64,000 nt of DNA from Opitutia bacterium (lineage in GTDB: Bacteria; Verrucomicrobiota; Verrucomicrobiia; Opitutales; Opitutaceae). A model generated the notes under the pieces. The model made no database searches. It was not told where the DNA came from and saw only the letters and a list, made by a program, of their open reading frames with translations. The stretch lies in contig PLOH01000148.1 in assembly GCA_003142955.1 (NCBI GenBank), forward strand, positions 169,975 to 233,974. Direction: 5' to 3'. Of the stretch, positions 17,669-31,892 are shown in pieces (position 1 is the first letter of the stretch; each line of letters starts with the position of its first letter). The translations under genes and the position numbers were made by a program.

Positions 17669-20600
17669 TTAAAAACCGCTGCTGGTGAACAGATCGTCGC
17701 GGAATTGGCCGTCGAGCGTGGTGAGATAGTTGTTCCAGTAGTCGAGATCCGCCTGGGCCGGCGCGGCGTTGAGGAAGGTGAAGTAGCTCAGGAATGTGCG
17801 GATCGTTGGGGAGAACCTAGCGACCGCCTCCGGCGATTCGGACAGGCCGATCAAGACCTGCCCGCAACTGGCGCCCCCATTCAGCTGCGCCACCCAGTTG
17901 GCCAGGCCGGTCGCATCCGCCTGCCGGCCGAGAACGTTCACATAAAGCGCAGAAACGTAGTCGCTGTTGCTCATCGCGCCATAAATGCCCGCAAACTCCG
18001 AGCTCGCCGCGAAGGCGTCACCTGCCGATTGCAGCGAATTGCCCGCCCGCAGGTACGCCACCCAATTGTCCAAGCCGCCGGAATCCGGCTCCCGGAGCAA
18101 AGCCCCCAGGTATAGCCGCGACACCGGAGCCACGTAGGCATTGAATTCGGCAGAAGTGAGCAGCGTCGTCACCAGGCTACCGTGCGTAACGGTTCCGGCG
18201 GTCAAGGCGCTGCTAAAGGCGCTCAGCCCCCCCGGATCTGCAGCCCGCCGCAAGAAGCCCGGGTAAACCAGCTGCACATAATCGGAGCTGGCAAGATCGG
18301 CGGGATATCCCAGGGCGAACAGAGCATCCGTCTCGTCAGAGCCCTGCAGGAAGCCCAGCCAACTCTGCAGCTCCGCCGGCGTTGGCATGCGTTTTAACAA
18401 CAAGTAGTACAGTCGAATGATCTCTACCCGGTTTGCCAGGTTGGCCTGGCCCTCGAGCGACTCCGAGATTCCAATCAGCACCGTCCCGCGCGAGCCACCG
18501 GCATTGAGATACGCCACACAGTTGGCCAGACCCGTCGCATCGGCCTGGCGCCCCAATGCGTTGATATAGATCAGCTGGACATACTGTGCATTATTTAGGC
18601 TGCCATAGTCCTGCAAAAACTCGGCGCTGCCAACGAACCCGTCACTCGCAGCCGCCAACGTGATCGCGCCGGCATGCAATGCATTAGACCAGGCCTGCAG
18701 GCCGCCAGCGTCCGGGCATCGCGCCAAGGCAGCACAGTACAGCCGGACTACCGAATCGATCTGCCGCAGGTTGTACTCGGTCGATCCGAGCAGATCGCCC
18801 AGCACATCAGCTCGCGACTCGCCGGCGGCCAAAGCGGTGCCAAAGGCGGCGGCCCCGCCGGCGTCGATCGGCCGGCCCAGAACATCGAGATAAAGCTGCT
18901 GCAGGAACGACTGGTCGGACAGGCTGAACACCGTCAGCGTCGCGGCGAAGCTCGTGGCCTCCTGATTCCCGCCATTGCTGACGACACATCGGAACTGGTC
19001 CCCGTTCATGGCCGCCGCAGTGTTGCTCACTGTCAGTGTCGCGGTGCCACCATAGGCGCTGCCCTCGGTGAGATCGGTCCAGGTGCTGCTGCCGCTGGCC
19101 AGCCGCTGCCATTGGTAGGTTAAGGTCGCGGGCGTGCCGCTGGCAGCGACACTGAAGCTCACGCTGCCGCCGGCATCCACCACCCGACTCACCGGCTGGG
19201 CCGTGATCGCCGGTACAATGGCCGCGGAACTTCCTGCGCGGATCGTATTGTCGCCGGCATCCACGACGTAGACATTGCCCGCGCTGTCCACGGCGATCGC
19301 CGCAGGCCAACGGAACAGCGCGGCGCTGCCCGTGCCGTCGGCGGAACTGGCGTGGTTGAAGAAGCCGGCGAGAGTCGTGACCACCCAATTGGTGCCTCCG
19401 CCCACGACCGTCGGCGTCACCTTGCGGATCAAGTCGTTGCCGTAATCCGCCACGTAAACATTGCCTGATCCGTCCAACGCCACGCTTGAGAATTCAGAAA
19501 AACTGGCGGCGGTGCCCGTGCCGTCCGCATAACCCCAGCTGCCTGTGCCGGCGATGGTCGTAACGACCCAATTGGCGCCGCCGCCACCGCCGGTCGGCGT
19601 GATTTTGCGAATCGCGCAGTTGTCGGTGTCAGCGACGTAGAGATCTCCCCCGCTGTCCACCGCGATGCCAGTGGGAGTGGAGAACCGGGCGGCGGTGCCC
19701 GTGCCGTCGATCAGGCCGTAGTTGCCGGCCGAGCCGGCGATGGTCGTGACGACCCAGTTGGTGGCTCCGCCCGCCACGGTCGGCGTGATTTTGCGAATCG
19801 TGTTGTTGTCGCCATCCGCAACGTAGAGATTGTCAGAGCCGTCCACCGCCACGGCCGAAGGATAGTAGAACCGGGCGGCGGTGCCGGTGCCATCGGCCGA
19901 GCCGGAGTTGGCGGCGGATCCGGCGATGGTGGTGACGACCCAGTTGGTGACTCCTCCCACCACGGTCGGCGTGATCTCGCGGATCGTGTGGTTGACGCAA
20001 TCCGCCACGAAGACATTGCCAAAGTTGTCCACCGTCAAATTATTCGGTCCGAAGAATTGCGCGTCACTGCCGGAGCCATCGGCCGAGCCGGTGCTGCCGG
20101 CGGATCCGGCGATGGTCGTGACGACCCAGTTGGTGACTCCGTTCACCACGGTTGGCGTGATCCTACGGATCGTGTTGTTGTCGGTGTCCGCGACGTAGAC
20201 ATTGCCTGCTCCGTCCACCGCCCCGCCCCAAGGATCATTAAACAGTGCTGCGCTGCCCCTGCCATCGGCCGCGCCTTGGCTGCGAGCGGAGCCGGCGAAG
20301 GTGGTGACAACGCCGGCGGGTGTCACTTTGCGGATCGTATTCATCGTGACGTCCGTGACAAAGAGATTGCCTGCGCTGTCGATTGTCTCGCCGCGGGGAT
20401 AAGAGAACTGCGCGGCGCTGCCCGCGCCGTCAGCCGCGCCATAATAGCGGGCAGAACCGGCGACAGTGGTGACGACCCAGTTGGTGACTCCGCCTGTCAC
20501 GGTTGGCGTGATCTTGCGGATCGTGCCGTTTCCGGAATCCGCAACGTAAAAATCGCCCGTGCTGTCTTCGACAATTCCCATGGGATAGTAAAACCGCGCG

Positions 20601-21526
20601 GCGCTGCCCGAGCCGTCGGTTGAATCCTGCTTGCCGGCGGACCCGGCAATCGTGGTGACCGACCCATCGGGCGTGATCCTGCGGATCGTGTCGTTGGCAT
20701 CATCCGTAACGTAAAGGTTGTTTGCGCCATCGAGCACGATGCCCATAGGATCGGCAAACTGCGCGGAGCTGCCCGTGCCGTCGGAGGAACCCCACGCGCG
20801 GGCGACACCGGCCAGGGTTGTAACCACCCAATTCGTGGCTCCGCCTATCACGGTCGGCGTGATCTTGCGGATCGTGTAGTTGTAGGTGTCCGCGACGAAG
20901 ACGTTGCCGGCGCTATCTACGACCACACCCGCGGGACCATCGAACTGCGCTGCGGTGCCGGTGCCGTCGGACGAACCCTCATTGCCGGCGGAGCCGGCGA
21001 GGGTGGATACAACGCCAGCGGGCGTGATCATGCGGATCGTGTTGTTGTCGGTGTCCGCGACGTAGACATTGCCCGCGCTGTCCGTCGCGATCCCCCCAGG
21101 CTGATTGAATCGCGCCGTGCTGCCTGCGCCGTCGGCCGAACCCTCGTTGCCGGCCGAGCCGGCGAATGTGGTGACCACGCCGGCCGGCGTGATCTTGCGG
21201 ATTGTGTGATTGGTCGTGTCCGCAACGTAGAAATTGTCGGAGCCGTCCACCTTCACGTCCCAGGGCCCATTGAACCGCGCTGCGCTGTCGGTGCCGTCGG
21301 TTGAACCCATCGACGCGGCGCCGGCGATGGTCGTGAAGACATAGGGGGTGGCGTAGTTGCTCTGGGCCTGGAGCGCGCCCAGCGGGGCGAGGACGGCGAG
21401 CAGCAGGGGCGCGAAGCGGAGAAGCACAGCTGGTCGGAACGCGTTGGTTTGTCTAACCAGCCGATGCGTAGCAGGCCGAACGGAAACCAGGCGAGGGAAT
21501 CGGTTCATGGGCGGGGCGGGGAACAT
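17669..21526 (-). CDS. Large secreted NHL-repeat / Ig-like / DUF4214-repeat protein
   Basis: 12 NHL-type repeats (YVADTxNxTIRKITPxGVVTTxAGSAGxxGSADGTGxAARF), an Ig-like segment, then several copies of LYLDVLGRPIDAGG...-type DUF4214 repeats. Confidence 0.85.
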   Translation of the reverse strand: MFPAPPMNRFPRLVSVRPATHRLVRQTNAFRPAVLLRFAPLLLAVLAPLGALQAQSNYATPYVFTTIAGAASMGSTDGTDSAARFNGPWDVKVDGSDNFYVADTTNHTIRKITPAGVVTTFAGSAGNEGSADGAGSTARFNQPGGIATDSAGNVYVADTDNNTIRMITPAGVVSTLAGSAGNEGSSDGTGTAAQFDGPAGVVVDSAGNVFVADTYNYTIRKITPTVIGGATNWVVTTLAGVARAWGSSDGTGSSAQFADPMGIVLDGANNLYVTDDANDTIRRITPDGSVTTIAGSAGKQDSTDGSGSAARFYYPMGIVEDSTGDFYVADSGNGTIRKITPTVTGGVTNWVVTTVAGSARYYGAADGAGSAAQFSYPRGETIDSAGNLFVTDVTMNTIRKVTPAGVVTTFAGSARSQGAADGRGSAALFNDPWGGAVDGAGNVYVADTDNNTIRRITPTVVNGVTNWVVTTIAGSAGSTGSADGSGSDAQFFGPNNLTVDNFGNVFVADCVNHTIREITPTVVGGVTNWVVTTIAGSAANSGSADGTGTAARFYYPSAVAVDGSDNLYVADGDNNTIRKITPTVAGGATNWVVTTIAGSAGNYGLIDGTGTAARFSTPTGIAVDSGGDLYVADTDNCAIRKITPTGGGGGANWVVTTIAGTGSWGYADGTGTAASFSEFSSVALDGSGNVYVADYGNDLIRKVTPTVVGGGTNWVVTTLAGFFNHASSADGTGSAALFRWPAAIAVDSAGNVYVVDAGDNTIRAGSSAAIVPAITAQPVSRVVDAGGSVSFSVAASGTPATLTYQWQRLASGSSTWTDLTEGSAYGGTATLTVSNTAAAMNGDQFRCVVSNGGNQEATSFAATLTVFSLSDQSFLQQLYLDVLGRPIDAGGAAAFGTALAAGESRADVLGDLLGSTEYNLRQIDSVVRLYCAALARCPDAGGLQAWSNALHAGAITLAAASDGFVGSAEFLQDYGSLNNAQYVQLIYINALGRQADATGLANCVAYLNAGGSRGTVLIGISESLEGQANLANRVEIIRLYYLLLKRMPTPAELQSWLGFLQGSDETDALFALGYPADLASSDYVQLVYPGFLRRAADPGGLSAFSSALTAGTVTHGSLVTTLLTSAEFNAYVAPVSRLYLGALLREPDSGGLDNWVAYLRAGNSLQSAGDAFAASSEFAGIYGAMSNSDYVSALYVNVLGRQADATGLANWVAQLNGGASCGQVLIGLSESPEAVARFSPTIRTFLSYFTFLNAAPAQADLDYWNNYLTTLDGQFRDDLFTSSGF

Positions 21527-21693: not shown

Positions 21694-22983
21694 CTACACC
21701 CGGAACGGGTCGTTCGACGGGGAGGGTTCCTTCGCGGGGAAGTACACCGTGATGCGCGTGCCTTCGCCGACCGTGGTCTCCACGTGCAACAATCCATGGT
21801 GGTCCTTCACGAGTCGGGAGACTATGGCGAGGCCCAAGCCGGTGCCCTTATCCTCCTTGGTGGTGAAGTACGGCTCGAAAATATGTGGCAGCACCTCGGG
21901 TGAGATGCCCGGCCCCTGGTCGAGCACCGACAGCGCAACCAGCGGCGAATCGTTGGCAAAGGACTCGAGGCCGATCACGGCATCGGCCGGACCATTTTGC
22001 AGCGTCTCCACCGGCAGCGGTTGAGGGATGATTTCGGCTGCGACCTGAACCGTCTGGTCTTCCACCGAGCTCTGGAACGCGTTGGTGGTGAGGTTGAGCA
22101 GGATCTGGACGATATCCGTGCTGTTGATGAGCGCGGCCATGTCCGGTTCCAGCAGTTTGACGGCGAGGTGGCCGCCGCGAACGGCCGGGTGGTGCTTGAG
22201 CAGCGTCTGCAAATCCGTGAGCACCTGGTTGACCCGCACCTCGCGGTTGGAAAAGTGGCGTTTGCCCAGGGAGCGCAAATAGCGCGAGGCGATCGCCACA
22301 CAGGTGTTCACCTGCTTGGAGATGGTGTTGAGATCCTCCCGGATCGCATCGAGCTCGGTGCCACGAGGCATTGCGCCCTTGGGCAGACGGCGCTCGATCA
22401 ACTCGACATAGCCCGAAATGATAGTGAGTGGATTATTGATGTCGTGCAGGACGCCCGCATAGATCTGGCTCGTGGCGCGGGCCATCTCTTCGCGCAGCGA
22501 GACATCTTGCAGTTGGTCGGTCAGCCGGCTGAGCCGGTCCTGGGCCTCGATGACCCGCTCGGAGATCCGGTGCAGCCGCATGGCGCGCGCCACGGCCTCG
22601 CGGATGGTGGGAATGTCGAAAGGCTTGCTCAGGTAGTCGCAGGCTCCGAGCCGGAGCGCCTGCCGTGCGGTCTCGATGGTCTCGTAAGCCGTGAGCATCA
22701 TGATCTCAATGTGGGGATCAATTTCCTTGAGGTTTTGCAGAACCTCGATGCCCGAGCTGCCCGCCATGCGGATGTCCAGAATCGCGACGTGGACCCGGTT
22801 TTGCTTGGCGAACTCAACCGCTTTCTTGCCGTTTTCGACGGCATGCACACGGAAATCCTTCTTGAAGACCATGCGCAGCGAGAGGCGCGGACCTTCCTCG
22901 TCGTCGACCACGAGCATGGTCGGCAGCTCAACGGTGGCGGCCGGAACGGCAGAAGGCGGGGCAAATGCGGAAGCGGTAGTCAT
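21694..22983 (-). CDS. Receiver-histidine kinase hybrid protein
   Basis: N-terminal receiver (MLVVDDEE, VAILDIRMAGSSGIEV, YLSKPF); H-box GVLHDINNPLTIISGY; HATPase LNLTTNAFQ, DQGPGI, GTGLGLAIV. Confidence 0.9.
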   Translation of the reverse strand: MTTASAFAPPSAVPAATVELPTMLVVDDEEGPRLSLRMVFKKDFRVHAVENGKKAVEFAKQNRVHVAILDIRMAGSSGIEVLQNLKEIDPHIEIMMLTAYETIETARQALRLGACDYLSKPFDIPTIREAVARAMRLHRISERVIEAQDRLSRLTDQLQDVSLREEMARATSQIYAGVLHDINNPLTIISGYVELIERRLPKGAMPRGTELDAIREDLNTISKQVNTCVAIASRYLRSLGKRHFSNREVRVNQVLTDLQTLLKHHPAVRGGHLAVKLLEPDMAALINSTDIVQILLNLTTNAFQSSVEDQTVQVAAEIIPQPLPVETLQNGPADAVIGLESFANDSPLVALSVLDQGPGISPEVLPHIFEPYFTTKEDKGTGLGLAIVSRLVKDHHGLLHVETTVGEGTRITVYFPAKEPSPSNDPFRV

Positions 22984-23019
22984 TGGCAGGCAGTCCAGTC
23001 GAGCGGGAGGCTACCCGGG

Positions 23020-24273
23020 CTAGAAACGATAGTCCAGCGAGAGTGCAAAGGTGTTGATCGATGAGCTGTAGGAGCCGTCGGTGGTTTCACCGGAGACGGG
23101 ATTGATCATGCCGTTGTGAATGTTCCGGCTGGGAGAGGTGGCATGCTGCAGGGTGAGCATGAACCGCAAGGGCCCTTGGGCATAGCCGACCCCGGCGCTC
23201 CAGAACTGGCGCGTGACATCGGGGACGGCGGGATTCCACATCGCGTCAGGCACCGAGTTTTCGCTCAAGGTATAACCGGCGCTGACATTCCAGCCACCGT
23301 TCAGATAGCGGGTCACGCCGAGTTCGTAAAAGCAGCTCGATTGCCAGTTGAAGGGTAAATCCAACGCCCCGCTGGCCTTGGAAATCACGGCGGTATTCAG
23401 CCGCGACCAGTTGGTCCAGTCGATGTCCGCCTCAAAATTCCATTGCGGCGTGGGCCGGTAGGAATAGCCGGCGATGAGCACCTCGGGAAAGACGAAGGTG
23501 GAGGTCGCGGACTCAGCGGGCGCGTACGGGGAGGCGGTGGCCGTGCCGCTCAGATCGAACGACGTCTGGTGTTGGTAACTGAGGCCGAAGGCATGCTGCT
23601 CGGACGGCTGCCAGCGCAGGCCGAGGTTGAAACCGATGTCGGTTCCGTCGGCCTTAAAGCGAAACTCGTCGCCGGGCATCAGGCCGATGCCGCGGTTCAG
23701 GTCGACGTTGAGCCGGTTGAAAGTCAGACCGCCTCCGAGGGAGAACATGTCGCTGATGCGCCAGGCGACGACCGGATTCAGCGTGGAATAGGTCTCCTCG
23801 TTCTTGGTGGCAAACGTGCGAAAGCCGGAGGTGGAGGGCCAGTCAGTCGAAAGACCGTAGGGATCATAGTATCCCAGCCCCAGCGCCCAAGAGGCGTTCT
23901 TCGGCGCCCAGGCGTAATAGACCTGCGGAATGACCTGGTTCTGGCGGTTCATAGACGTGGTGGCACCGCCGGGGGCGCGATAATCAGCCCCGAAGCTGAC
24001 CACATAGGCCGTTGCGGAAAAATCCTGTCCGGTCAGCTGGGTGAGGCCGGCGGGGTTGTAATAGACGGCCGCCGGATCATCGGCGGTCGCCACAAAGGCA
24101 TTTCCACGAGCCGTCGCAAACGCATCTTGGAAACCCACGCGGGTGCCGGAGGCGTTTAGGGCGGCCGCGATCAGAACGAGGCCGGCGCCGATGCCAAAGG
24201 CCAGATCGGCCAACCCGTGAATCCGTTGCACAGAACGTGGCGTGGTGGCGCAGGGAGCAGGTTTGGGAATCAT
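23020..24273 (-). CDS. OmpP1/FadL family outer membrane protein (hydrophobic compound/fatty acid transport)
   Basis: GFQDAFATARGNAFVATADDPAAVYYNPAGLTQLTGQ is a FadL N-terminal hallmark; C-terminal YRF. Confidence 0.88.
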   Translation of the reverse strand: MIPKPAPCATTPRSVQRIHGLADLAFGIGAGLVLIAAALNASGTRVGFQDAFATARGNAFVATADDPAAVYYNPAGLTQLTGQDFSATAYVVSFGADYRAPGGATTSMNRQNQVIPQVYYAWAPKNASWALGLGYYDPYGLSTDWPSTSGFRTFATKNEETYSTLNPVVAWRISDMFSLGGGLTFNRLNVDLNRGIGLMPGDEFRFKADGTDIGFNLGLRWQPSEQHAFGLSYQHQTSFDLSGTATASPYAPAESATSTFVFPEVLIAGYSYRPTPQWNFEADIDWTNWSRLNTAVISKASGALDLPFNWQSSCFYELGVTRYLNGGWNVSAGYTLSENSVPDAMWNPAVPDVTRQFWSAGVGYAQGPLRFMLTLQHATSPSRNIHNGMINPVSGETTDGSYSSSINTFALSLDYRF

Positions 24274-26303
24274 GAGCAGGAAGGTAGATGAATCACGAGA
24301 TCGGGGTCGTCCGGCTGGATGCGGGTATGCACCTCGAGGCGGCCGGCATGCGCTTCAATTACGCGCTTGGCAACGGTGAGGCCGAGGCCGACGCCGGTGT
24401 TGCGCGTGGTGAAAAAAGGATCGGTGGCCCGGGCCGCGACCTCGGAAGGGAAGCCCGGACCGCTGTCATGCACGCGGAGGGCCAGCTCCGGCCGCCCATC
24501 CGGCCCCGCTTCGGAGGCGACCGTGACTATGACCTTGGGCGGATCGGCGGCCGATTGGAGGCTGTTCAGGAAGATCTCCTGCAGGGCGTGCAGCATGCTC
24601 GGACGGTGGCAGCGCACCGACGCGTGGAGCACTTCGCTCCGGATTTCGAGTTCGCCCGCGTCCTGGCCGAGGAAATCGCGCGAACGCTTGAAGCTTTTCC
24701 GGAGCAGATCGTCGAGCGGCAGCGCATCGGTGGGGCCGCCTTCCGTCTGCGCCAGGAAGAGCATCTGCTCGGTGAACCGCTGGATCCGGCCCGTCTCGCG
24801 GGTCAGCGCCTGCTTCAGCGAATCGCGAAATTCTGCATTGACGATATCGGTGTCGAAGAGCTGCTCGTGGGTGGTGAGCGGCACGAGCGAATTGCGGATC
24901 TCGTGGGCAAAACGCCGGGCGATCAGACCCATGAGCTTGAGGTTTGACGCCTCGATCTCGGCGTGCTGCGCCGCGCGGACCTGCGTGAAATCTTCCAGCA
25001 GCAGGAGGGCCGGTTGCGGCAGCTGGGTTTTATCGGTGGGAAAGGGGATGAGCGAAACGCGGAAGACCCGGCCGGGCGCGCCGGGGTGTTCGTAGGAGAA
25101 AGGCGCCACGCTTTGACCACCCTCCACGACTTCGCGCAGGCTCTTGGCCAGGACCGGCGGCAGTTCCGCAAATTCGAAATGCGCCGGGGCGGGCGCGGGT
25201 TCCGAAAAAAACCGGCGGAAGGCTTGGTTGGCAAACAGGACCGTGAGATCCGCGCCGACCACCAGCGCGCCGCTGGTCATGGCGCCGAGCACGTCGGAGA
25301 ATAGGCGGTGGCTGTCGGCCAATTGATGATGCAACCAGGAATTCTTCACGGCGAGCCCCAGCTCTTCCATCAGGTGGTAGAGGAGCAACAGCTCCGCGTC
25401 GGTAAAGGGAGTGCCGGTGATGCGTCCACCCAGCAGCGCGATCCCGATCGTGCGTTCACGGTCATTGACCGGCAACGCGATCTCACAGCCGAGAATGTCG
25501 AATTCGCGTTTCAGGCGGGGGTCGTCGGCGAAGAACGGAGCGCTGCTTTCGGCCCCGAGGCGGATGATCCGGCCCGTCTGCGAAACGCGCTGGCCCAGTC
25601 CGCTCTTTCGGGAGAGTTCAAAGCAGTTAATCAACTCGGCTGGCAGACCCACTGCGCCGGCGCAAATGAGCCGCTGGGGATCGTGTGACGCGGGGATTCC
25701 CAAGGAGGCGGCTGGGGGCGGCGCCTCGAGAAAGATCGCGATCCTGGCGGCGCCGATGATCTCTCGCAGCTTGACCACAAAATGTCCGGTGAACTGCCGG
25801 TAATCGAGCGAATAACTAAAGATCTGCGAGAAGTCCCGCATGACCGTGAGCGCCGAGGTGGAGAGCGCGGGGGCGGGTGTTGCCCCGGCGGGCGAAAACG
25901 GCGGTGAGGAGGCGGGTCGACCGGCAGCGGGCGTCGGCCGGGTGTTTCGCATCGCCAGCCGTTGAATGACCGCCAGAAAAGTGGGCTGGTCGCATGTGGG
26001 AGCGAGCACGAGGTCCGCGCCAGCCAGGTAAGCCGCGCGTTCTCCCTCCGGTGACCCTCTTCGGCCGGCAATGACCAGCGGGCAGTCGGCGGCCGCGGCT
26101 CGAAACTCGGCAATTGCCCATTGAGCATCCTCGGAGAGCGCCTCTACCACGAACAGGCAGACGTCGAACATTCCCGCATCGAGCAGGGGGCGGGCGGCAG
26201 CCAAGTTTGGCGTCCGCAATGATTTGAATTCGACTGAGGCGGAGGGGACCGCGATGGGCGGAATCGGAACGTTCTCCCCGGCGATGATGAGAAGGTGAAT
26301 CAC
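24270..26303 (-). CDS. Cytosolic sensor histidine kinase (degenerate receiver-like + GAF + PAS + HisKA + HATPase)
   Basis: RRFAHEIRNSLVPLTTHEQ H-box; VHDSGPGF and GVGLGLTVAKRVIEAH ATPase motifs; 4-bp overlap with the fadL-like gene. Confidence 0.85.
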   Translation of the reverse strand: MIHLLIIAGENVPIPPIAVPSASVEFKSLRTPNLAAARPLLDAGMFDVCLFVVEALSEDAQWAIAEFRAAAADCPLVIAGRRGSPEGERAAYLAGADLVLAPTCDQPTFLAVIQRLAMRNTRPTPAAGRPASSPPFSPAGATPAPALSTSALTVMRDFSQIFSYSLDYRQFTGHFVVKLREIIGAARIAIFLEAPPPAASLGIPASHDPQRLICAGAVGLPAELINCFELSRKSGLGQRVSQTGRIIRLGAESSAPFFADDPRLKREFDILGCEIALPVNDRERTIGIALLGGRITGTPFTDAELLLLYHLMEELGLAVKNSWLHHQLADSHRLFSDVLGAMTSGALVVGADLTVLFANQAFRRFFSEPAPAPAHFEFAELPPVLAKSLREVVEGGQSVAPFSYEHPGAPGRVFRVSLIPFPTDKTQLPQPALLLLEDFTQVRAAQHAEIEASNLKLMGLIARRFAHEIRNSLVPLTTHEQLFDTDIVNAEFRDSLKQALTRETGRIQRFTEQMLFLAQTEGGPTDALPLDDLLRKSFKRSRDFLGQDAGELEIRSEVLHASVRCHRPSMLHALQEIFLNSLQSAADPPKVIVTVASEAGPDGRPELALRVHDSGPGFPSEVAARATDPFFTTRNTGVGLGLTVAKRVIEAHAGRLEVHTRIQPDDPDLVIHLPSCS

Positions 26304-26647
26304 GTCAATAACTCAATTCCCAGCATGTCGGATAGGACGCATGGCCAATTGGTGTAAGTAATTGGCAATTGGGAATAGCAACGCAACGGAAAAGTGAAAC
26401 TAATAGTTGCAGAAGCTCGCTCGCCAGGCTGGAGGCACGGCGAGGCACAGGGCGGCGGGGCCAGATGAGTTGAGCGTTGCATTTGCCCATGGATTGCAGT
26501 TTCTTCTGCAGAATCCGGGAGCGGATGCGACACGTCTTTACAATTGCAGCGACATCTCATCGAGGCGGCAGGAGTCACAGCGAACCGATGCTTGGCTCCC
26601 GTCAACATCGCTGTCCATTGCTACCTCCCTGAGACACTATCCCTGCC

Positions 26648-28357
26648 ATGCTTGCCGATTCATCCCAGGTCGAGACGGGTCTAATCCGCACGGATTTTGT
26701 CACCTATCAGAATCGGACGGGGCTGCGCATTGCCGCCTGTCTCGATCACGTCGGGGGCGACATGCGAGCCCGGCCGTGGGTGCTGATGATGCCGAAATTC
26801 GGGGAAACAAAGAAAACCACGCTCCACCTTGCCTATCACCTGGTTGCAAATGGGTTGAACGTGCTGCGTTTTGATCCGACCAACCACGTGGGCGAAAGTG
26901 AAGGGCGGATGCTGGATTTCACGATGCCGGGTGCGGTCACCGATGCCATCGCCGGACTGGATTATCTTGAGGCCAGTTTTGGGGTGAATCAGGTGACGAC
27001 GGTGGCGAACAGCCTCTCGGCCCGATGCATGTTGCGAGTGGCGGCGAAGGATTCCCGCATCCAAAAACTCATCTGTGTAGCAGGCGTGGTCAACCTGATT
27101 GCCACGATCCAGGAGATCAACAAGGAGGATCTCCTCGGATTATATCAACAGGGCCACCATTGGGGCGTCACCGACTTCCTGGGATTCGACATCAATGGTG
27201 ATGTTTTTCTTAGAACGCTGATCGAATCGAAGCTCGGCGATCTGGCAGGATCGATCGAGGACGCGGCTCGATTGAACATGCCGTTTGTTTTCTTTTACGC
27301 GGAGCGGGATGTCTGGGTCGACAAACTCGAGGTGGAGCAGGTGGTGGCGGTCAATCCGCGCGGCCAGTTGGTGCCGGTGGCGGCGGCGATGCACGAGGTG
27401 CGGGAAAATCCTCAGGCGGCCCGGCAGCTTTTCGAACAAGTGGTCTGGACCTGCCTGCACGACGAGCCGTACCCGGGGGAAGGCGCGGCCAATCTGCGCA
27501 GCCCTGACAAGAAACTTATCCTGGCGCAGAACCGCCGGGAACGGGACCGCATGCGCCGTTCCGAGTCGCCGGTGGAAAGCGAGTCCGAGTTTTGGTCAAG
27601 ATATCTTCAGAAATATAGCATTCTGGAGAAAGCCTCGGACTACCGGACCTATTTGGACTTGGTGGGCCGGCTTTGCGGGCCCCTGTCCCCCGGGGCGCTC
27701 GTGCTGGACGCCGGATGTGGCAACGGTTTGTTTGGGCTCTGGGTGCTGCGCGAAGTCTGGCAACGACAGACCTTGGCTCCAGCAGACGAACCGCTTGTCT
27801 ACGTTGGCCTTGACCTCACGCAACGTGGCCTGGCAGATGCGTTGGACAACCATCTGGGTTGGAGACATCAGCTGCACAAGATCGCCACGGCGCGGGCGGT
27901 CCCTCGGCCGGGGCTGCAGTATTTTCTCATCGATTTCGACCGGCTGCGCAATGAGGCTGGCGCAACGAACCAGCTGCCGTTCCAAGAGGGGACATTTGAC
28001 GTGATCTGCTGCAGCCTCGTCCTTTCCTATCTCAGGCGCCCGCAGGGGCTGCTCCTTGAACTTCACCGGGTGCTCCGGCCGGGCGGAGTGCTGGTCGTGT
28101 CGAGCATGAAGCCGAATTGCGACCTTTCCATCATCTATCGTGACGCGCTTGCGACGAATGTCACCGCGGAGGACATCGAGGCGGGGCGAAATCTGCTGCG
28201 CGCGGCCGGCAAGATAAAATTAAAGGAAGAGATCGGCTACTACACGTTCTACTCGCAGGCCGAGCTGGCGGAGCTCGTGATGGATGCCGGATTCAATGTG
28301 CTGGAATCGTGCTTGTCGCTGGGCGAGCAGGCCGCGGTGATCAAGGCGGGTAAATGA
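26648..28357 (+). CDS. LuxD-type acyl transferase/hydrolase fused to a SAM-dependent methyltransferase
   Basis: N-terminal half: VANSLSARC, FFYAERDVWVDKLEVEQVV and MHEVRENPQAARQLF match the LuxD Ser/Asp/His contexts. C-terminal half: VLDAGCGNGLFGLWVL ... FDVICCSLVLSYLRRPQGLLLELHRVLRPGGVLVVSS. Confidence 0.8.
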   Translation: MLADSSQVETGLIRTDFVTYQNRTGLRIAACLDHVGGDMRARPWVLMMPKFGETKKTTLHLAYHLVANGLNVLRFDPTNHVGESEGRMLDFTMPGAVTDAIAGLDYLEASFGVNQVTTVANSLSARCMLRVAAKDSRIQKLICVAGVVNLIATIQEINKEDLLGLYQQGHHWGVTDFLGFDINGDVFLRTLIESKLGDLAGSIEDAARLNMPFVFFYAERDVWVDKLEVEQVVAVNPRGQLVPVAAAMHEVRENPQAARQLFEQVVWTCLHDEPYPGEGAANLRSPDKKLILAQNRRERDRMRRSESPVESESEFWSRYLQKYSILEKASDYRTYLDLVGRLCGPLSPGALVLDAGCGNGLFGLWVLREVWQRQTLAPADEPLVYVGLDLTQRGLADALDNHLGWRHQLHKIATARAVPRPGLQYFLIDFDRLRNEAGATNQLPFQEGTFDVICCSLVLSYLRRPQGLLLELHRVLRPGGVLVVSSMKPNCDLSIIYRDALATNVTAEDIEAGRNLLRAAGKIKLKEEIGYYTFYSQAELAELVMDAGFNVLESCLSLGEQAAVIKAGK

Positions 28358-30465
28358 CGAAATACCTCGTCATTTCGTCCTTTCTGAATTTTGTCGCCGC
28401 CCTTTTGGTGACGTTCGCCGTGGTCTTGCGCGGGCGCAAGAACCAGCTGGCGCGGCGATTTGGGTTTTTTTCCCTGAGCCTCGGGATCTGGTCCGCCGCC
28501 TATTTTTTGTGGCAGATCTCCGAGGATGCAGAACGGGCGCTGTTCCTGTCACGGCTGCTGATGGATGCGGCCTACTTGATCCCGGTCACCTACCTGCATT
28601 TCGTGGTGGATCTTTGCGGTGAAAAGCGACCCTGGTGGATCCGGATCGGGTACGGCACCGCGTTGGTCTTTGTCGCGGCGAATTCGACGCCCTTCATGAT
28701 TACGGGTGTCAAACCGACCTACGATCTTCCCTTTTGGCCTCGGGCGGGTCCCGGTTTTGCCCTCTACCTGGGATTTTTCGCCGTCTACACCGTGGAGGCG
28801 GCGCGGCTGCTGCATCGGCAGGCCCGGGCTTCCTCGGGTGCCCGGGCCACCCAGCTGTGGCATATCTTCTTCGCCACGCTGATCGGCTTCACGGGTGGAG
28901 CGACGAATTTCCCGCTGTGGTACAATATTTCTGTGCCCCCCGTGGGCAATGCGCTGGTGTTCATCTATCTGGTGACGGTGGCAAACGCCGTGGCCCGCTA
29001 CCAGCTGCCGCTGGCCACCTACGATTTCGTCCTGGCGGCGTTGTATATGGGGATTAGCGCCACGGTGTCTGTTTTCTACCTCTTGGCCTATGTGGTCGCT
29101 TCGTCATTGCAGGGGGTGATGCTCACTTCGACCGACCTGCTCAACGGTTTCCTGCTGGGCATGGTGGTGAGCCTGTTCTTCTTTTGGATTGTGCCGAGGT
29201 TGAAGGAAAGCACCGAGCGCATCCTCGAGCAGACCTACCTTCGCAAGCGCATTGGTCGGCGCAGCCGGCTGAAAGGCCTGGCCGAGCAAATCTGTACGAT
29301 TGCTGCTGAACAAGAAATCTTCGACACGACCGTGCGGGAGATCGCCGGCGCCATGGGTTTTGCCCACCTCGGTCTCTTCATCCGGAGTGAATTCAGCGAG
29401 GTGTACCTCTTGCGGTCGCAGTTGGGCTGGGGGCGCGACGACTACACGCTGACGTCCCTGGGCTCCGATGCCCGGTTGGCGGGCGTGCTGGCGCAGCATC
29501 AGGTTCCCCTGATTTTTGACGGGTCTGAGGTCGAACTGCCTCCCGAGACCTTGAAGGAGATCGAGGCCACGCGGAAAGAGATGCCCTTCGAGGCGGCCTT
29601 TCCCATCCTGACGGAGGGCTTTCTTTTGGGATTGCTCGTCCTCAGTCCGCGGGAGAATCGCGAACGCTACACGGAGGTTGATTTCTCCCTGCTCGAAACC
29701 GTCTGCCTGCAGCTGGGCGTCACCCTGCGCGCGCGCCAACTGGAGCGCCGCGCCAGCCAGACGGAAAAACTCATCTCGCTGGGCACCCTGGCGGCCGGCC
29801 TGGCTCACGAACTGCGGAATCCATTGGTTTCGCTCCAAACCTTTTCCGCGCTGCTCAAGGAGCACGGCCACGAACCGGAGTTTCACCAGGAGTTTGGCGC
29901 GGTCATCCAGCGCGACGTGGGCCGCATCGCCAGCATCGTGGAAAACGTCGCCGCGTTCGCCGAAAGCAGCACGGTCCCGTTTGCCGCGGTGAAGATCGAA
30001 GAGGTGATCAACGGGGTCACCGAGATCGTGCGATCCGAGCTGACGCGTACCGGCGTGCAGTTCAGGCTGGAAGAGCCGTGCAGCCAGCTGCCCGTGCATG
30101 GGAATTACAGCCAGTTGTTGCAGGTGTTCCTTAACCTCGTGCAAAACGCGTTGCATGCCCTCGAGGGCCGGGCGGACGGCCGCATTATTGTGACGGTGGA
30201 AGCGCGGGTTGGTGACATGCCCAAGCCCATGCTTTCCATCAGAATTTCGGATAACGGCTGCGGGATCGATCCGGCCCTCGTGCGCCGCGTCTTTGAGCCG
30301 TTCACCACCACCAAGTCGACCGGTGACCACCGCGGCACCCGCGGAATGGGATTGGGACTCGCCATCGTCCGCCGCATCATCCAATCCCATCAGGGAGCGA
30401 TTGAGGTGACCAGCGAACTCGGGAAAGGCACCACGTTCCAAGTTTACCTTCCGGTCCACGAATAA
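28354..30465 (+). CDS. 7TM-type sensor histidine kinase with GAF domain
   Basis: About 7-8 N-terminal hydrophobic segments; GAF-like middle; GLAHELRNPLVSLQTF; NLVQNALHA; DNGCGIDP; GMGLGLAIVRRII; ATGA overlap with the upstream gene. Confidence 0.9.
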   Translation: MTKYLVISSFLNFVAALLVTFAVVLRGRKNQLARRFGFFSLSLGIWSAAYFLWQISEDAERALFLSRLLMDAAYLIPVTYLHFVVDLCGEKRPWWIRIGYGTALVFVAANSTPFMITGVKPTYDLPFWPRAGPGFALYLGFFAVYTVEAARLLHRQARASSGARATQLWHIFFATLIGFTGGATNFPLWYNISVPPVGNALVFIYLVTVANAVARYQLPLATYDFVLAALYMGISATVSVFYLLAYVVASSLQGVMLTSTDLLNGFLLGMVVSLFFFWIVPRLKESTERILEQTYLRKRIGRRSRLKGLAEQICTIAAEQEIFDTTVREIAGAMGFAHLGLFIRSEFSEVYLLRSQLGWGRDDYTLTSLGSDARLAGVLAQHQVPLIFDGSEVELPPETLKEIEATRKEMPFEAAFPILTEGFLLGLLVLSPRENRERYTEVDFSLLETVCLQLGVTLRARQLERRASQTEKLISLGTLAAGLAHELRNPLVSLQTFSALLKEHGHEPEFHQEFGAVIQRDVGRIASIVENVAAFAESSTVPFAAVKIEEVINGVTEIVRSELTRTGVQFRLEEPCSQLPVHGNYSQLLQVFLNLVQNALHALEGRADGRIIVTVEARVGDMPKPMLSIRISDNGCGIDPALVRRVFEPFTTTKSTGDHRGTRGMGLGLAIVRRIIQSHQGAIEVTSELGKGTTFQVYLPVHE

Positions 30466-30470
30466 TTTCC

Positions 30471-31892
30471 ATGATTCCCCGGGACGCCAGCACCCTGCAA
30501 GTCCAAGGAATGTCCGGGCCTCGGACGCTGTCTGGTCCGGCCGCGCTGCGGGCGCTGACCATGGCCTTCGCCCACCTGCAGGACTTCAACGGATTTGTCG
30601 CCGGCCTGCAGGCCGCGCTCGGCAAGGCAGAGTGGTTTGGCCGCGTGAGACTTGAATTGGAGGATCAGCCCGGAGCGGGAGAGGCGAGATTTCTTCTCGG
30701 CGAGATGGCCCTTCCGATCCAGGGCGCGGTGGGTTCGCATGGCGTGTTGCGCGCGACCGGCCAAGATGGATCCCGCACCTTCAGGTCCGAGGATCTGCAT
30801 CTTTTATCGGGTTTGGCCGACTTTCTCGCCGTCGTGCTCGACTGTGCCCAGGAGTGGCGCGAGGTGGAGCATCACCGCCAGTTGCTGGACCTGTTGCTCA
30901 ACCAGGCGCCGGTCGGCATTCTCGCGTTCGACCGGCAGCACCGGGTGGCCGCCGGCAATGATCTGGCCCGGCGGTGGCTCGGCGGAGGCGATGATCTCTG
31001 GGCCGCTTTGCAGGCGGCATTGCCTGCCGAAGTGCGGGCCGGTGATCATGGGCCGCGGGCCTTTTTCCACCGGTGCATCGAGGGGCGACTGGTATTTTGC
31101 GAATTGAGGAATCCCGTCGGGAGCGACGGCGCGGGGGGGTGGGTCGTGGTCATGACGGATCTTACGGCGGACCAGGCCCGCCTGCTTGATGCCCTGCACC
31201 GGGAGACCTACCGGTGCCAGTGGTTGCGACGGCGGCTGGGTTTCGTCCTGTTGGAATCACCCCTCGGCGCCGGGGGCATTCTGCAGCTCTTGCCCGAACT
31301 GCGAGCCAGCCTGCCGGCGGCAGCAGCGGTCGGACCCTATGATGCGAACCGTGTGGGTCTGGTGTTTCCAGAATTGGGACGTGCGGCCATCGTGGCACAT
31401 TTGCGGCGGCTCAAGCCGTTGCTGGCCGACGCCTCGATCCGCGCCGGCTTGGCCGAACTGGGCCGGGAGGGCGGCGAGCCGGAGAAATTGCTGCAGACGG
31501 CGCTGGTCCGACTGCGGCCGTTGGACGAGCTGCTGCGGCCGGCGTTGCTGCTGCATGACGACAATTCGGCGGTGAACGACACCCTGGCCTACGTGCTGGG
31601 CGGCGATTTCGAGCTGGTGAAGAGCTCGAGCGAGGAACGCACCCGGCAATTGCTGCGGACGCGGGACTTCGATGCGCTCATTACCGAGGTGGACCTGCGC
31701 GGCGCGAGCGGACTGGAACTGGCCCGTCTGGCGGGCGACCTGCAGCCCGGCATCCACACTTTCTTTACGGCCATCTCGGAACTGGCGGCGGAGGCGGTCG
31801 GTGCCCAGGAACCGGTGGATGCCGTGGTTTTCCGAAAGCCCTTCGACGCGCGCCTGCTGGGGAGAACCGTGCGGGAGAAGCTGGGCTTGTGA
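30471..31892 (+). CDS. PAS-containing regulator with C-terminal atypical receiver
   Basis: PAS-like VGILAFDRQHRVAAGNDLARRWLG; receiver LLLHDDNSAVNDTLAYVLG...ALITEVDLRGASGLEL...FFTAISE...FRKPFD. Confidence 0.75.
   Translation: MIPRDASTLQVQGMSGPRTLSGPAALRALTMAFAHLQDFNGFVAGLQAALGKAEWFGRVRLELEDQPGAGEARFLLGEMALPIQGAVGSHGVLRATGQDGSRTFRSEDLHLLSGLADFLAVVLDCAQEWREVEHHRQLLDLLLNQAPVGILAFDRQHRVAAGNDLARRWLGGGDDLWAALQAALPAEVRAGDHGPRAFFHRCIEGRLVFCELRNPVGSDGAGGWVVVMTDLTADQARLLDALHRETYRCQWLRRRLGFVLLESPLGAGGILQLLPELRASLPAAAAVGPYDANRVGLVFPELGRAAIVAHLRRLKPLLADASIRAGLAELGREGGEPEKLLQTALVRLRPLDELLRPALLLHDDNSAVNDTLAYVLGGDFELVKSSSEERTRQLLRTRDFDALITEVDLRGASGLELARLAGDLQPGIHTFFTAISELAAEAVGAQEPVDAVVFRKPFDARLLGRTVREKLGL

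Follow-up and report, generated by a model that had tools for sequence, protein, structure and literature searches.

A LuxD–methyltransferase fusion exchanged together with a 7TM sensor domain: a candidate autoinducer cassette in Verrucomicrobiota

Introduction

Does an enzyme of the LuxD family, fused to a methyltransferase and encoded next to a membrane kinase, make a signal that this very kinase detects? The question is raised by a locus in a 64,000-nucleotide stretch of DNA (hereafter, the window) from an Opitutia bacterium of the family Opitutaceae (assembly GCA_003142955.1, contig PLOH01000148.1, positions 169,975 to 233,974), in which the gene of such a fusion overlaps that of a seven-transmembrane (7TM) histidine kinase. 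An earlier note on this DNA had proposed that the fusion protein releases and methylates a fatty acid sensed by the co-translated kinase or, alternatively, that the enzyme is the lipid-modifying output of a kinase monitoring the state of the membrane. The comparison of loci presented here supports the former proposal over the latter: the enzyme and the sensor domain of the kinase are exchanged together, as if they were a single allele, and the kinase core goes with the flanking genes. The locus is probably a self-contained cell–cell signalling (autoinducer) cassette, in which the product of the fusion enzyme would be sensed by the 7TM kinase.

The three plus-strand open reading frames (ORFs) of the earlier note are borne out, down to the ATGA shared by the first two at 28354-28357 and the 5-bp gap before the third. 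The conserved divergent arm at 21694-26303, coding for a FadL channel and two further kinases, had been missed, and the cassette thus comprises six genes, listed below with two related regions:

26648..28357, + strand: P0001, fusion of a LuxD-type acyl hydrolase/transferase (about residues 12-307) with a class I S-adenosylmethionine (SAM) methyltransferase (about residues 312-569); putative signal synthase
28354..30465, + strand: P0002, 7TM (HisKA_7TM)-GAF-HisKA-HATPase sensor histidine kinase, phospho-acceptor H485; putative signal receptor
30471..31892, + strand: P0003 (third gene), N-terminus with a GAF-like part and, by eye, a PAS-like part, C-terminal pseudo-receiver with Glu406
24270..26303, − strand: P0004 (second kinase), soluble histidine kinase (H467) with GAF and PAS domains and, by eye, a receiver-like N-terminus
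23020..24273, − strand: P0005, FadL/TodX-family outer-membrane channel for hydrophobic molecules (PF03349, E = 4e-51; solved-structure matches)
21694..22983, − strand: P0006 (hybrid), an intact receiver (D70) and a histidine kinase (H180) in one protein, a PhcR-like layout
26304..26647, no strand: divergent intergenic (promoter) region, within the exchanged block in loci L061/L065
26648..29704, + strand: window counterpart of the exchanged allele block (enzyme and sensor domain), whose right edge varies by pair

Joint Exchange of Enzyme and Sensor Domain

Two pairs of loci illustrate the exchange. Between L061 and L065, the hybrid, FadL and second kinase are 96%, 93% and 98% identical, the GAF domain and kinase core 88-90% and the third gene 90%, as against 53% for the LuxD domain, 61% for the methyltransferase and 56% for the transmembrane (TM) domain of the kinase. 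The same contrast is visible at the DNA level, where flanks that are mostly 93-99% identical surround a block of 50-78% identity running from the intergenic region, which is lower than the rest of the block, to about the border between the TM and GAF domains. For L072 and L094, identities are 89% (hybrid), 76% (FadL), 77% (second kinase) and 74% (kinase core), as against 51% for both LuxD and methyltransferase, 32% for TM and 29% for GAF.

Across loci, the distances of the hybrid, second kinase, FadL and third gene agree closely with one another (0.90-0.96) and less with those of the enzyme or the 7TM kinase (0.75-0.81). Rank partial correlations, computed over 23 loci with the hybrid and second-kinase distances held constant, were 0.65 for LuxD and methyltransferase, 0.59 for LuxD and TM and 0.68 for methyltransferase and TM, the last two values being reached by none of 2000 permutations; between LuxD and the kinase core, the value was −0.04.

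Separate trees of LuxD, methyltransferase and TM domain all recover two types, A (L071, L072, L083, L088) and B (L089, L091, L094, L118), with a support of 97-100 in the Shimodaira–Hasegawa-like approximate likelihood ratio test (SH-aLRT) and without a single mismatched A/B enzyme–sensor pair. The kinase-core tree recovers neither type and groups L061 with L065 and L071 with L118, like the flank tree. In approximately unbiased (AU) tests, L061+L065 (p = 8e-11) is rejected by the block data, as is the L072/83/88/91/94 clade of the flank tree (p = 9e-47), and type A (p = 3e-4) and type B (p = 1e-4) are rejected by the flank data; the clades were drawn each time from the opposite data set, which makes for a fair cross-test, on trees from quick searches without a mixture model. 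By parsimony, at least three A/B switches are needed on the flank tree and one on the block tree. The right edge of the exchange falls at about kinase residue 330 in L061/L065 (about 29344 in window coordinates) and at about residue 450 in the A/B pairs (about 29704). Repeated exchange of an enzyme and a sensor domain that halts before the kinase core is what one would expect of a matched synthase and receptor, and we consider it quite likely that the kinase reads the product of the enzyme, a grade that is a judgement and not a computed value.

The Fusion Enzyme

The 569-aa fusion protein matches PF02273 (Acyl_transf_2/LuxD) over residues 60-263 with E = 1.2e-25 and 90.9 bits, above the gathering threshold of 20.3. 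The NCBIfam LuxD model (NF052253) matches it with E = 6e-25 and matches all 43 orthologues, although the 88 bits obtained do not reach the equivalog cut-off of 420 set for LuxD sensu stricto, the fatty acid reductase subunit. Vibrio harveyi LuxD (1THT) is the best solved-structure match to the single sequence (E = 6e-18) and to the family profile (2e-32, the next hydrolase being at 1.5e-12). Taken together, these E-values place the resemblance to LuxD far beyond chance. The AlphaFold2 model (predicted local distance difference test, pLDDT, 87.9; predicted template modelling score, pTM, 0.84) also has 1THT as its nearest structure (Z 31.4, root-mean-square deviation 3.0, 278 residues aligned, 23% structural identity), but feruloyl esterases come next at Z 29, only 2.4 behind, so that the fold alone leaves the matter undecided and the LuxD assignment is decided by sequence, where the lead of 1THT by 20 orders of magnitude in E-value discards a generic hydrolase.

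In the sequence alignment with 1THT, residues S122, D221 and H249 of the fusion protein align with S114, D211 and H241 of LuxD, which we take to be the LuxD catalytic triad, and none of the three varies in any of the 43 orthologues. The nucleophile motif in the window, A-N-S-L-S (AxSxS), is like the A-A-S-L-S of LuxD and unlike the usual GxSxG. The earlier note had read LuxD-like Ser, Asp and His contexts in this half, and the alignment, the invariance and the motif bear that reading out: a profile search returns the LuxD family with its triad intact, not a hydrolase without it. The N-terminal half is therefore a predicted LuxD-family acyl hydrolase. A role in bioluminescence or aldehyde synthesis is unlikely for it, since LuxC was found in none of 10 carriers and LuxE above its family cut-off in none of the same 10, which leaves no aldehyde pathway.

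The C-terminal half was rightly described as a class I SAM methyltransferase: residues 333-553 match such enzymes in the profile search, and the SAM motif D354xGCGxG is invariant in the 43 orthologues. Family-specific methyltransferase profiles returned only generic matches below their cut-offs (BioC, 1.4e-8; Mtf2, 1.5e-5). Reading the methyl acceptor from the fold failed as well, with NodS, OxaG, CysG, CmoA and others tied within Z 1; this half is not diagnostic of its acceptor.

Kinases, Receivers and Channel

Profile search finds HisKA_7TM, GAF, HisKA and HATPase_c domains in the 7TM kinase. Its score for PF16927 (HisKA_7TM) is 35.7 bits (gathering threshold, 28.6), 29 of 30 orthologues match this family, and beyond the 7TM match there are more hydrophobic segments, at about residues 220-280. 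The phospho-accepting histidine is invariant both in this kinase (H485) and in the second one (H467), and the hybrid retains D70 and H180. The channel protein aligns from residue 34 to 417 with positions 3-421 of the 421 of PF03349 (FadL/OmpP1/TodX; 174 bits), and its solved-structure matches are FadL, TbuX and CymD.

The third gene does encode a receiver protein 5 bp after the kinase, as had been noted, but not a normal one. In a profile alignment to the intact receiver of the hybrid, Glu406 stands at the phospho-acceptor position, and 12 of 13 orthologues have Glu there; the protein thus lacks the phospho-acceptor Asp of a phospho-accepting response regulator. The kinase core of the 7TM kinase (29749-30465) co-varies with this pseudo-receiver (30471-31892) at a partial correlation of 0.49, a hint of interaction despite the Glu in place of the Asp. 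A smaller patch that diverges between L061 and L065 (L061:13051-13350; 76-78% DNA identity, with 95-99% around it) lies in the N-terminal part of the third gene, whose N-terminal domain may also be part of signal specificity.

The intergenic region yielded no sigma-70 promoter, and the short motifs shared between intergenic regions are too weak to be called an operator. In the window's genus, the intergenic region (26304-26647) and its counterparts in L061-L065 contain a conserved stretch resembling GGCAACGGAAAAGTG; a TTGCTC(A/G)TTGC motif is common to the intergenic regions of other genera, and both are possible regulatory sites. Outside the conserved core, the cassette adjoins a gene for a large repetitive protein (17669-21526, 1285 aa) with NHL-like repeats by eye.

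Distribution and Conservation

The fusion is found in 39 of 252 genomes of the host's family, spread over 16 of 49 genera, and the phylum sample adds one further family of the order (L037/L075). In a phylum sample of 240 genomes, PF02273 occurs in 5 and always as part of the LuxD–methyltransferase fusion. When the GTDB species collection was searched with the family profile, 43 loci came up, assigned to Opitutia, Opitutaceae, Puniceicoccaceae, Opitutales, Opitutus, Didemnitutus or Verrucomicrobia/Verrucomicrobiota; both search motifs being specific, such a scan could overlook more divergent forms. A complete genome, that of IMCC26134 (CP011265.1), is among the carriers. Beyond bacterial chromosomes, viral contigs gave no match, and plasmid matches were limited to a generic methyltransferase and one annotated acyl transferase, presumably from a lux construct, which aligns with 36% of the query at 30% identity; no relative of the hybrid came up on plasmids at E ≤ 1e-30.

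The enzyme gene is directly followed by the 7TM kinase gene in all 43 loci of the collection, so the pair singled out by the earlier note is indeed kept together, and the ATGA overlap of stop and start is present in 36 of 39 loci. Among 15 loci with flanks, all have the enzyme, the 7TM kinase and the divergent kinase, 12 have FadL, and most have the third plus-strand gene and the hybrid. Three loci (L096, L102, L104) have a reduced cassette, with the enzyme, the 7TM kinase and, where the contig allows, the third gene, and with no recognisable divergent arm (kinase, FadL or hybrid) in about 8 kb upstream; the minimum cassette is therefore the enzyme and the kinase, usually with the third gene. 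The neighbourhood beyond the six genes is variable, and the outer neighbours that do recur are RmuC-like or ABC transporter genes (by eye, housekeeping-like) or antisense artefacts, which we do not count as parts of the cassette.

Two loci depart from this picture. The LuxD–methyltransferase gene at L063:6453-8156 (the L078 locus) has one in-frame TAG in an otherwise intact cassette, through loss of the synthase or a sequencing error, and one metagenome-assembled genome (QNAI01) has two cassettes on two contigs (L111 and L112), either a true second copy or strain contamination.

Proposed Signalling Model and Alternatives

The sequences themselves show the domains, the intact catalytic residues, the conserved cassette and an exchange of enzyme and sensor domain that is independent of the kinase core and the neighbouring genes; from these we infer the following chemistry, ligand, direction of signalling, FadL role and phosphoryl route. 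The LuxD domain would take a fatty-acyl group from acyl-acyl carrier protein or acyl-coenzyme A via an acyl-serine intermediate and then free the acyl chain, and the fused methyltransferase would methylate the product, the simplest outcome being a fatty-acid methyl ester. FadL would help this hydrophobic signal across the outer membrane; as it follows the flanking genes and not the enzyme, it would be at best a general channel. The 7TM(-GAF) domain of P0002 would bind the signal within the membrane, and the kinase core of P0002, together with the second kinase, would feed the hybrid and the pseudo-receiver. Profile search recognised no DNA-binding domain in any cassette protein, these two included, and they must therefore act on regulators encoded elsewhere. 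In our judgement, which is not a computed value, the product is likely to be a fatty-acyl compound; that it is a simple methyl ester we put forward only tentatively, at a little below an even chance.

Several observations weigh against this autoinducer model: the cassette lacks a transcriptional output, the methyltransferase half has no substrate-specific match, FadL is missing in some loci and, where present, its distances track the flanking genes and not the enzyme, most loci come from metagenome assemblies, and linkage alone can carry neighbouring genes together. The last two points are the basis of a purely genomic explanation, in which the co-exchange of genes that are, after all, adjacent would reflect linkage, recombination hot spots or assembly chimeras and carry no functional information on a ligand. 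We hold this to be quite improbable. The swaps recur, with the A/B changes on the flank tree coming on top of L061/L065; they spare the gene about 150 bp upstream, and their right edges differ but lie before the kinase core; and LuxD, methyltransferase and TM domain give the same types with no mismatched pair. Chimeras in particular are disfavoured, as the ORFs and the ATGA overlap are intact across the block edges.

An intracellular lipid-homeostasis loop, in which the 7TM kinase monitors the membrane lipid or fatty-acid state and the fusion enzyme removes or modifies an acyl group as its output, would do without any cell–cell signal. A 7TM kinase, a FadL and an acyl hydrolase all suit lipid handling, and a cassette devoid of output regulator and exporter fits as well, but such a loop gives no reason to expect that a matched enzyme and sensor domain would be swapped together and the kinase core and remaining signalling genes left in place, and an output enzyme for common lipids should lack alternative types within one genus; we regard it as unlikely. 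The ligand might also not be self-made: FadL would import an external hydrophobic compound, sensed by the kinases and processed or detoxified by the fusion enzyme. FadL-family channels do import hydrocarbons and fatty acids (PMC7728783), and the LuxD fold is near that of esterases. With no catabolic genes conserved alongside the cassette, a FadL that does not co-vary with enzyme or sensor, and loci where FadL is absent and enzyme and kinase are always kept, we give this uptake-sensing scheme very little credence.

Comparison with Known Systems

The fusion enzyme shares with V. harveyi LuxD, a myristoyl-ACP thioesterase/acyltransferase, its family, triad positions, AxSxS motif and nearest structure. 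It differs in being fused to a methyltransferase, in carriers without LuxC or a convincing LuxE, and in a gene that lies beside kinase and FadL genes, not luciferase. The kinase recalls PrsK (TIGR02916, the XrtA/PEP-CTERM kinase), with a collinear match of the GAF-kinase part (residues 317-700 on model positions 318-679), but scores 120 bits against a cut-off of 300, its TM part is outside the best stretch, and no exosortase genes are among the conserved neighbours of the cassette. Exosortase-A-associated families also include alpha/beta hydrolases, and the fusion family gives weak matches to one of them, TIGR03100.

Exchangeable synthase–receptor alleles are known as the pherotypes of the agr and ComQXP systems, which use peptide signals. 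In these, the signal-making gene and the sensor domain vary together, as the fusion enzyme and the sensor domain do here, with conserved kinase core and flanks; an acyl compound, and not a peptide, would be expected here. The agr and phc systems have been compared (PMC6580516). The phc operon encodes the methyltransferase PhcB, the kinase PhcS, PhcR (receiver and kinase) and PhcQ (receiver), neither PhcR nor PhcQ having a DNA-binding site (PMC8578825), and in Ralstonia, the PhcB and PhcS trees split by signal type and the PhcR tree does not (PMC5462968). PhcBSRQ, which uses 3-hydroxypalmitic or 3-hydroxymyristic acid methyl ester (3-OH PAME, 3-OH MAME), thus resembles our cassette in uniting in one locus a methyltransferase, a membrane kinase, a receiver–kinase hybrid and a receiver protein without DNA-binding domain, and in a synthase and receptor that co-vary apart from the regulator; this likeness is drawn from the published descriptions of phc. 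The phylum is different, no LuxD domain is reported for PhcB, no FadL or second GAF-PAS kinase for phc, and the receiver protein is here a pseudo-receiver.

Hydrophobic molecules move through FadL channels by lateral diffusion (PMC7728783), and in Sinorhizobium, FadL mediates the uptake of long-chain acyl-homoserine lactones (AHLs) (PMC9938287). An outer-membrane channel of the same family thus serves a long-chain acyl signal there, although AHLs are made by a LuxI-type enzyme, and here the channel gene lies inside the synthase/sensor cassette itself.

Significance

Searches of the open-licence literature turned up neither this fusion nor this cassette, although a prior description may have been missed. 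A LuxD-type signal synthase is, to our knowledge, new, while the composition of the cassette parallels phcBSRQ. On balance, we lean towards an undescribed class of quorum sensing in Verrucomicrobiota, in which a LuxD–methyltransferase would make a fatty-acid (methyl ester) signal and matched synthase/sensor pherotypes would be exchanged on a common core with its own FadL. If this is true, fatty-acid methyl ester signalling would no longer be confined to Ralstonia and its relatives but would include a phylum that is abundant and poorly cultured, an enzyme family of bioluminescence would have a second life in signal synthesis, and the natural enzyme/sensor allele pairs would make signal specificity directly testable.

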